This document shows positions 5,245 through 7,813 of a stretch of DNA of 64,000 nucleotides, piece by piece. The translations under genes were made by a program, and so were the position numbers. Each line of letters begins with the position of its first letter. Positions within the stretch are counted from its first letter, which is position 1. The notes beneath the pieces are model-generated. The model worked only from the letters and a program-made list of their open reading frames with translations. It was not told the DNA's origin and did not search any database. Source of the stretch: Richelia sinica FACHB-800 (GTDB taxonomy: Bacteria > Cyanobacteriota > Cyanobacteriia > Cyanobacteriales > Nostocaceae); NCBI RefSeq assembly GCF_014698825.1, contig NZ_JACJTT010000030.1:1-64000 (forward strand), read 5' to 3'.

Positions 5245-5895
5245 TTAAGTTCCAAAGATGCGATCGCCAGCATCACCCAATCCCGGTACAATAAATCCTC
5301 GATCATTCACCGTTTCGTCAATAGTAGCAGCGTAAACGGTTAAACCAGGATATTCAGCACTGAGCTTCTGTAAGGCTGGGGGTGCTGCTACTACACAAAT
5401 AATTCTCGTTAAGGCTGGATCGACACCTCTGTGCGTCAATTCTGCCATCGCTGTCATTATAGACCCTCCCGTTGCCAGCATCGGATCAGTAATCAAAACT
5501 CGTGTTTGTGGGTCAAACTTCTCTGGCAGTTTATTCAAATAACAGGAAGGTTCCAAAGTCTCCTCATTTCGCACCAAACCCAGATGGTAAATTGACGCTA
5601 AAGGTAATAAAGTCTGCGCTCCTTCCAACAATCCTAATCCCGCCCGTAAAATTGGTACAACCGCCACAGGAACTTGTGGGTCAACAAAAGTAGCTGGACA
5701 TGCTGCTAAAGGGGTTTGCACCGTCGTATCTTGGGTTGGTAGCCAGTCTCGTGCTGCTTCATAGGTCAGCCATCGTCCTAACTCTGTAATGGCGCTGCGA
5801 AATAATACCGAAGGTGTAGCTACATCACGGACTACGCCTAGCCAATGTTTGATGAGGGGATGGGGTGGGACATAAACAAGCAATCTTTGCGTCAT
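5245..5895 (-). CDS. upp: Uracil phosphoribosyltransferase
   Basis: This enzyme salvages uracil by converting uracil plus PRPP to UMP and pyrophosphate in the cytoplasm. The 216 residues match the family length. Visible motifs are VPILRAGLGLLEG (about 79-91), the PRPP-binding loop VLITDPMLATGGSI (about 133-146) and the uracil-binding C-terminal GLGDAGDRIFGT. It is transcribed away from the candidate small RNA and crtH. The glycine-rich membrane protein gene follows downstream. Confidence 0.95.
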   Translation of the reverse strand: MTQRLLVYVPPHPLIKHWLGVVRDVATPSVLFRSAITELGRWLTYEAARDWLPTQDTTVQTPLAACPATFVDPQVPVAVVPILRAGLGLLEGAQTLLPLASIYHLGLVRNEETLEPSCYLNKLPEKFDPQTRVLITDPMLATGGSIMTAMAELTHRGVDPALTRIICVVAAPPALQKLSAEYPGLTVYAATIDETVNDRGFIVPGLGDAGDRIFGT

Positions 5896-6048
5896 AGCTA
5901 GAAACGGGTAGCTTTCGATTTAGATGAGAACTGAAACACAATCATACCAAGTTTGGATTTTGGATTGAGAATATTCACGGCTAGGCATTTTCATTCCCTC
6001 ACTCCAGCCATAGCACCCCAGATTATTGAAAATATTTTGCATTAACAG

Positions 6049-6078
6049 TTGACAGCCATTCTCAATCAAGGCTATATT
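6049..6078 (+). promoter_or_regulatory. Sigma-70 promoter of a candidate small RNA
   Basis: A perfect -35 hexamer TTGACA (6049-6054) and -10 TATATT (6073-6078) are separated by 18 bases. This predicts a start at about 6085. It points along the plus strand into a 70-base segment that ends in an intrinsic terminator. Confidence 0.65.
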
Positions 6079-6085
6079 GTTATAC

Positions 6086-6155
6086 AGTGTTCTCCTCTCT
6101 TTAAAGGATCGGCAGACGGGATGAGCCGGCGGTAGCAGGCTTCTCCCTCTTTTTT
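6086..6155 (+). ncRNA. Candidate small RNA or attenuated leader
   Basis: Between the promoter at 6049-6078 and the terminator ending at 6155 lies a transcript unit of about 70 bases with no open frame. Its 5' part is a single-stranded C/U-rich stretch (GTTCTCCTCTC), complementary to Shine-Dalgarno sequences, followed by the palindrome CTTTAAAG. The 3' part is the terminator hairpin. An exposed anti-SD stretch before a terminator is typical of trans-acting sRNAs; cyanobacterial PsrR1 is one possible relative, which I cannot confirm. Alternatively it is an attenuated leader of crtH, which begins 156 bases beyond the T run. Confidence 0.6.
6118..6155 (+). terminator. Intrinsic terminator of the candidate small RNA
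   Basis: GGGATGAGCC (6118-6127) pairs with GGCTTCTCCC (6138-6147) in a 10-position stem with one T-C mismatch and one wobble. The loop is GGCGGTAGCA and the tail is TCTTTTTT (6148-6155). No coding gene ends upstream on this strand. Confidence 0.75.
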
Positions 6156-6310
6156 ATGTCTAGAGACTATTTAAACAACCAAAAAATATCTAAATTGCCT
6201 ATTTCATCAACAGATTCCTGGCGTGGTATTATCTTACATATGTTTTGAAAAATACAAAAATTGAAACTCCTATCACTATCCCTAGAGTTATTTTTAATTT
6301 TTAATTGTCT

Positions 6311-7813
6311 ATGTCCCCTGATTCCACTTTTGATGTCATTGTGATTGGTTCTGGTATTGGTGGTTTAGTTACAGCCACCCAATTAGCAGCAAAAGGGGCA
6401 AAAGTATTAGTTTTAGAACGTTATCTTATTCCTGGTGGTAGTGCAGGTTATTTTGAACGCCAAGGTTATAAATTTGATGTTGGTGCTTCCATGATTTTTG
6501 GTTTAGGTAATCAGGGGACAACAAACTTACTAACTCGTGCCTTAGCTGCCGTGAATGTACATATTCACAGCATTCCTGATCCAATACAGATTCACTACCA
6601 TCTACCTAATGAATTAGATATCAAAGTAGACAGATTGTATGAAAAGTTTTTGCAAAACCTGACGGATTATTTCCCCCATGAAGCAATGGGTATTCGTCGT
6701 TTTTATGATGAATGCCAAAAAGTTTTTAACTGCCTTAATAATATTGAGTTGCTATCTTTAGAAGAACCTAAGTATTTATTGCGTGTATTTTTTCAACATC
6801 CCTTAGCTTGTTTAGGATTACTTAAGTATTTACCTCTAAATGCCGGCGATATTGCTCGAAAATATATTACAGATCCACTATTATTAAAATTTATCGATAT
6901 AGAATGCTATTGCTGGTCAGTAGTACCAGCAGATATGACACCAATGATTAATGCGGGGATGGTGTTTTCTGATCGACATTATGGTGGTGTAAATTATCCT
7001 CAAGGTGGAGTGGGAGTAATTGCCCAAAAGTTGGTTGAAGGCTTGAAACAAGCAGGTGGTGAGATTAAATACCAAGCCAGAGTAACGAAAATCATCACCG
7101 AAAAAGGACAGGCTGTAGGTGTACGACTAGCCAATGGTACAGAATTTTATGGTAAAAAAATAGTATCCAATAGCACACGTTGGGATACTTTTACAAAATT
7201 ACTTCCCCAAGAACACCTGCCTAATAATGAGAAAAAATGGCAACAAGCCTATGAAAAATCACCCAGCTTCTTGAGTTTACATATGGGTGTGAAGGCAGAA
7301 GTTTTACCTACGGCAACAGCATGTCATCATATCATCTTGGAAGACTGGCAGCAGATGACAGCATCAATGGGGACTCTGTTTGTTTCCATTCCCACCTTAC
7401 TAGACCCAAATTTAGCGCCTCCAGGACATCATATTATCCACGCCTTTACACCAGACTGGATTGTTCATTGGCAAGGACTTTCAGCAACGGAATACAGAGA
7501 AAAGAAAGGGCTAGTGGCAGGAAAAATCATTGAACGCTTAGAAAAGGTTTTCCCTGGCTTAAATGCAGGATTAGATTATTTAGAAGTAGGGACACCACGC
7601 ACCCATCGTCGCTTTTTGGGAAGAATGGATGGAACTTACGGCCCCATACCCAGACGGAAATTGTGGGGGTTATTGTCAATGCCGTTTAATCGCACCGCTA
7701 TTCCTGGTCTGTATTGTGTGGGAGATAGTACCTTCCCTGGTCAGGGTTTGAATGCAGTGGCTTTTTCTGGTTTTGCGTGTGCTCATCGTATTGCTGAAGA
7801 TTTGCGACTTTGA
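6311..7813 (+). CDS. crtH: Prolycopene (carotenoid) isomerase CrtH/CRTISO
   Basis: A FAD-dependent phytoene-desaturase-like enzyme of 500 residues. It isomerises poly-cis-lycopene to all-trans-lycopene, needed when carotenoids are made in the dark. The Rossmann dinucleotide fold [20 protein letters not shown] is near residues 9-28. It is followed by [20 protein letters not shown] and the family-typical [10 protein letters not shown]. Near the C-terminus are [20 protein letters not shown] and the second FAD motif [18 protein letters not shown]. The frame extends upstream to a TTG at 6305, but the ATG at 6311 is the better start. The beta-lactamase-like gene follows 88 bases later. Confidence 0.9.

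Follow-up and report, generated by a model that had tools for sequence, protein, structure and literature searches.

The Fur-repressed sRNA RyhB of enterobacteria turns off iron-using proteins, including sodB. In cyanobacteria the sRNA IsaR1, reportedly described in Synechocystis PCC 6803 by Georg et al. 2017, has so far been studied mainly in this unicellular genus; nitrogen fixation makes heterocyst-forming cyanobacteria especially iron-hungry. In PCC 6803 IsaR1 has a length of 68 nt and its start at position 3,164,320; it is conserved among cyanobacteria (PMC6202907). Two further sRNAs are relevant here: PsrR1, which is 131 nt long in Synechocystis and S. elongatus and is controlled by RpaB, and Yfr1, whose motif is CACUCCUCACACC.

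We analyzed a window of 64,000 nt, a single contiguous stretch of the Richelia sinica FACHB-800 genome. Within it lies a gene that very probably encodes the Nostocaceae IsaR1, a trans-acting RNA that Fur would release under low iron and that would block translation of iron proteins; this identity is drawn from a convergence of features.

The small-RNA gene between upp and crtH

The locus comprises the following elements:

5245..5895, minus strand: upp, uracil phosphoribosyltransferase (NF001097/TIGR01091), the divergent neighbor
6027..6041: AT-rich semi-palindrome TGAAAATATTTTGCA directly upstream of the -35 box, candidate second Fur half-box
6049..6054, plus strand: -35 box TTGACA, read from the sequence and the promoter scan, conserved in the homologue alignment
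6058..6066, strand unassigned: Fur-box-like core ATTCTCAAT within the promoter spacer, equal to the core of the FurA consensus published for Anabaena
6073..6078, plus strand: -10 box TATATT from the promoter scan, TATATT or TATAGT in most homologues
6086..6155, plus strand: small RNA of ~70 nt, very probably an IsaR1 homologue; covariance model R1 matches 6086-6156
6087..6099, plus strand: invariant seed GUGUUCUCCUCUC from the homologue alignment, with predicted pairing to sodB, petF, sufB, sufC and acnB leaders
6114..6155, plus strand: intrinsic terminator, a covarying hairpin plus T6, from the sequence, the consensus fold and covariation
6311..7813, plus strand: crtH, carotenoid isomerase (TIGR02730, E 9.7e-283), a conserved neighbor

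The signals that an earlier note on this DNA had described, TTGACA, TATATT at a spacing of 18 nt and a hairpin followed by T6, are all seen in the sequence where it placed them, and the T-run is indeed followed after 156 nt by the crtH ATG at 6311. The promoter is the top site of the region in the promoter scan (11/12), a region that holds five promoter-like sites with 4.9 expected by shuffling. The GC-rich hairpin spans ~6114-6150 and the T6 run 6150-6155; a simple terminator scan did not report this hairpin. The length of ~70 nt stands, and the start is likely A6086, judged from the onset of conservation and the distance to the -10 box, and not 6085 as proposed before. A frame opening at an invariant GTG within the RNA runs for five codons (GTG TTC TCC TCT CTT) up to a TAA, and indels after it disrupt any longer frame among homologues.

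A BLAST search with positions 6030-6175 against 193 Nostocaceae genomes (E<=0.01) found the sRNA and its promoter in 189 of them, as a rule in single copy, with ~81-92% identity to the Richelia sinica element among the matches listed. The 13-mer GTGTTCTCCTCTC is identical in 90 of 90 aligned loci with a recognized element, part of this invariance arising by construction since the loci were chosen by this motif after BLAST. It is followed by a variable linker and then by an almost invariant AAGGAUCGGCAGACGGGA. More distant homologues carry single changes in the 13-mer, for example GTGTTCTCTTCTC in Synechocystis. Nearly all homologues are 63-76 nt long, the Richelia sinica RNA measuring 70 nt. 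At E<=0.05, a threshold at which the weakest matches are unreliable, a covariance model, R1, built from the aligned Nostocaceae sRNAs, had matches in 174 of the 390 genomes searched within the class. Thus the covariance search that the earlier note had suggested places the RNA, like IsaR1, widely among cyanobacteria. The Rfam search yielded no family at the gathering score (best chance match E 0.69, nothing relevant up to E 5), and annotation pipelines relying on Rfam would therefore miss the element; a phage collection gave no match to it either.

The consensus fold has two elements, the terminator helix and, 5' of it, a weak hairpin. Two-sided changes occur at 6 of the 9 pairs of the terminator helix, versus 1.9 expected from shuffles for the whole structure; the whole consensus structure has 18 two-sided change cells versus 2.4 in shuffles, and sliding the pairing partners abolishes the pairing. 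The hairpin and the C/U stretch are thus conserved in relatives, as the earlier note had anticipated. The weak 5' hairpin, which lacks compensatory changes, involves part of the C/U stretch. In most homologues the UCCU of the seed can form weak pairs with an AGGA farther downstream, leaving the C/U stretch exposed only in part; of the exposed, Shine-Dalgarno-complementary 5' stretch proposed before, the complementarity holds and the full exposure does not. Two computations of the fold energy gave unremarkable z values of -1.25 and -0.99. Comparison across genomes, and not fold energy alone, leads us to conclude that 6049-6155 is a real small-RNA gene, whose transcription we infer.

Several lineages depart from the common form. 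The four Nostocaceae genomes in which BLAST found no sRNA are G027, G081, G125 and G144; three of these, of genus g28, have no R1 match either, while other members of g28 are positive, and the sRNA has apparently been lost in a lineage. A tandem duplication of the 5' seed (GTGTTCTCCTCTCTCGTGTTCTTCTCT-) in genome G492 and in the group of Microseira, Argonema and their relatives leaves the RNA with two seeds (loci L062 ~1236, L067 ~1212, L069 ~1155, L080 ~1165 and L167 ~2001) and makes it longer, ~86 nt in the Microseira/Argonema group. Genome G113 has an intact copy at C1:4009084 and, beside a crtH fragment (L156 2001-2060; G113:C1:1410806-1410865), a second one that keeps the terminator half and has lost the 5' seed, probably a decayed duplicate.

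Predicted targets and probable iron control

To the target set belonged literature IsaR1 targets or iron-requiring genes, plus one control, Mn-SOD. Pairing energies were computed with RNAduplex, accessibility left out, and 221 other gene starts served as background (mean -8.1 kcal/mol). The pairing region of the sRNA consists of the seed GUGUUCUCCUCUC and the following UUUAAA, an anti-Shine-Dalgarno sequence. In Nostocaceae, leaders of sodB (Fe-SOD) read UAAAGAGAGGAUUUCAC-N-AUGGC or similar, and UAAAGAGAGGA, the exact complement of UCCUCUCUUUA in the sRNA, or a close variant covers their Shine-Dalgarno sequence. The mean over 19 sodB genes is -19.6 kcal/mol, a value reached by 1 of 221 background starts. 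Means of -16.2 for sufB and -16.0 for petF were each reached by 3 of 221, and that of -14.9 for acnB by 8 of 221; sufC, at -17.6 kcal/mol, surfaced within the background set. Many leaders share recognizable sites: those of petF (ferredoxin) often read AAAAGAGAGGAUUACU, those of sufC often AGAGAGAACAUG, and many of acnB GGAGAACA or GGAGAACAC, and the sufB leaders have one block AAAGAGA, complementary to UCUCUUU of the sRNA, and another, GAACAC, complementary to GUGUUC. The Mn-SOD control, an enzyme of the same function as Fe-SOD that needs no iron and whose start codons are uncertain, gave a mean of -7.1 kcal/mol, reached by 129 of 221 background starts. The target prediction with the C/U-rich seed that had been proposed earlier thus returned conserved pairing at sodB, petF, sufB, sufC and acnB.

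Part of the pairing strength is mere complementarity to strong Shine-Dalgarno sequences. Of 300 shuffled seeds, 3 reached the observed mean for sodB, 2 for sufB, 14 for petF and none for acnB, which together with the background indicates that the pairing exceeds a generic Shine-Dalgarno match, least clearly for petF. The sites in petF, sufB and acnB vary from genome to genome, and pairing is poor in a few acnB orthologues. The identities of sodB and petF in Richelia sinica were confirmed with NCBIfam and Pfam. A search of the same genome for the exact 10-mer GAGGAGARCA gave 13 matches versus 7 for the reversed control; none of the 13 lies clearly at a gene start, and hence long perfect complements are not the basis of target choice here.

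The two sufB blocks (L241-L270) pair with adjacent parts of the sRNA, leaving an mRNA bulge of variable length, and their spacing varies widely among genomes. In a small Nostocaceae genome (G013, C1:3164625-3170483, RNA in L155) the sRNA lies ~2 kb past a sufD-like match and so adjoins the suf operon, its predicted repression target.

Between the -35 and -10 boxes, promoters are as a rule free to vary in sequence. The spacer of this promoter holds ATTCTCAAT, which matches exactly the core of AAATAAATTCTCAATAAAT, the FurA consensus of Anabaena (PMC4005646). Among 90 homologous promoters, ATTCTCAA is exact in 64 and ATTNTCAA in 76, and such conservation within a normally unconstrained spacer suggests an operator. 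The AT-rich stretch TGAAAATATTTTGCA upstream of the -35 box has a recognizable form in many Nostocaceae and may, tentatively, be the second Fur half-box. The exact match to the FurA core covers 9 nt, and the Richelia promoter by itself matches the consensus at 13 of 19 positions, which 34 of 500 shuffles also reach; an exact 13-mer of the FurA core has 7 matches across the genome, none at a recognizable iron gene. Weighing the conserved spacer sequence against this modest likeness of the single promoter and the uninformative genome matches, we regard Fur control as likely.

In the mechanism we propose, iron-loaded Fur would occupy the box inside the promoter and block transcription when iron is sufficient; when iron is scarce, Fur would leave the promoter and the sRNA would be made. 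Conserved pairing is predicted between its 5' region GUGUUCUCCUCUCUUU and the Shine-Dalgarno regions of several transcripts: those encoding the iron-rich proteins Fe superoxide dismutase, ferredoxin and aconitase B, and that of the operon for Suf Fe-S assembly. By analogy with the known behavior of IsaR1, this pairing would block translation and spare iron.

Synechocystis homologues and identity of the RNA

R1 finds the sRNA in all five Synechocystis genomes examined, with one credible copy in each; PCC 6714 carries it once, at G559:C1:1933976-1934038. In these genomes, PCC 6714 included, the RNA begins with AGUGUUCUCUUCUC, its promoter contains a Fur-like sequence of the TTGACAATTATTTTCATTAA type, and it lies directly upstream of crtH in the loci with crtH within reach. 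Synechocystis sufB has GGAGAACACU shortly upstream of the AUG, and its pairing reaches -21.8 in three of five genomes and -18.8 and -20.8 in the other two, that of sodB being -19 to -21. Both the sRNA and the sufB and sodB leaders have changed yet are still predicted to pair, which is what one would expect of a real regulator.

We take crtH of PCC 6803 to be sll0033. In that strain sps (sll0045) lies at 3,142,651 (PMC4632739), and the published positions put the IsaR1 start 22 kb from it. The gene order is rearranged among relatives, sps being ~41 kb away in PCC 7338 and elsewhere in PCC 6714. The IsaR1 position in PCC 6803 agrees with the sll0033 neighborhood and is compatible with adjacency to crtH.

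A different, undescribed Fur-controlled trans-acting sRNA, which acts like IsaR1 and is not its orthologue, is improbable. It draws on the identification by features and not by direct sequence comparison, and on the lack of a matching Rfam family. However, each Synechocystis genome holds one credible copy, of the right length and predicted to pair with published IsaR1 targets; the IsaR1 start at 3,164,320 fits the sll0033 neighborhood; and a second phylum-wide iron sRNA of ~68 nt with the same targets would have to have gone unnoticed.

Relation to crtH and to known sRNAs

In homologous loci upp is usually divergent and crtH lies downstream of the sRNA. Of 126 distinct loci, 111 have crtH downstream in the same orientation, a biased sample since many loci were fetched through crtH; the other 15 show the sRNA without crtH in the stretch fetched, and as these stretches are short crtH may lie farther off in some of them. 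This preferred order is what speaks for the alternative offered by the earlier note, a crtH leader attenuator in which conditional termination at 6155 sets crtH transcription. We consider it very improbable. The sRNA end and crtH are separated by anything from 34 to ~420 nt (993 in one case), some lineages retain the RNA in loci without nearby crtH, the consensus fold offers no antiterminator alternative, and conservation is strongest in the 5' seed, for which we found no pairing at the start of crtH (mean -6.5 versus -8.1 kcal/mol for background). Thus we found neither a fixed cis relation to crtH nor an antiterminator fold, and the variable distance together with the lineages lacking crtH nearby argues for a stand-alone RNA, the other option of the earlier note.

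The isaR1-crtH order, conserved over a long time, may still be functional in itself if read-through from the iron-controlled promoter feeds crtH mRNA under iron starvation, an idea to which we give a small chance. If true, one Fur switch would silence iron-rich proteins and support carotenoid synthesis.

The weakest reading, a PsrR1 homologue acting as a high-light sRNA on photosynthesis mRNAs, which the earlier note had brought up along with light regulation and for which the C/U-rich anti-Shine-Dalgarno stretch speaks, merits practically no credence: PsrR1 is 131 nt long and RpaB-controlled, whereas the terminator ends this RNA at ~70 nt, a size that excludes PsrR1, and most homologues are 63-76 nt long with a Fur-like box and predicted iron-protein targets.

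If the IsaR1 reading holds, heterocyst-forming cyanobacteria have a master iron-sparing RNA too, and its exact locus, putative operator and conserved predicted target sites are now defined. As nitrogen fixers are iron-hungry, the predicted sites at sodB, petF, suf and acnB are directly testable links.

Among known systems, Yfr1 is likewise short and conserved in cyanobacteria and has a C/U-rich motif that stays unpaired, but that motif is CACUCCUCACACC and not the GUGUUCUCCUCUC found here, and our sRNA has no Rfam match. PsrR1/SyR1 resembles it as a cyanobacterial trans-acting sRNA working at ribosome-binding sites, and differs in its RpaB/high-light control and photosynthesis targets. RyhB is similar in outline to the proposed role but is of another size and Hfq-dependent in enterobacteria, a likeness in action. 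The closest system is IsaR1, with 68 nt versus ~70 nt here and a wide distribution in cyanobacteria for both. They also share the targets sodB, sufB/sufC, petF and acnB, here predicted at the Shine-Dalgarno sequence with Mn-SOD as negative control, as well as a Fur-like operator in the promoter, here putative, and generally one copy per genome. Compared with the Synechocystis relatives, the Nostocaceae RNA has CUCCUC instead of CUCUUC in the seed and an extra UUUAA after it that lengthens the predicted sodB pairing. On our best reading, IsaR1 is known as a type of sRNA, and the present locus adds its Nostocaceae member with conserved predicted iron-economy targets.
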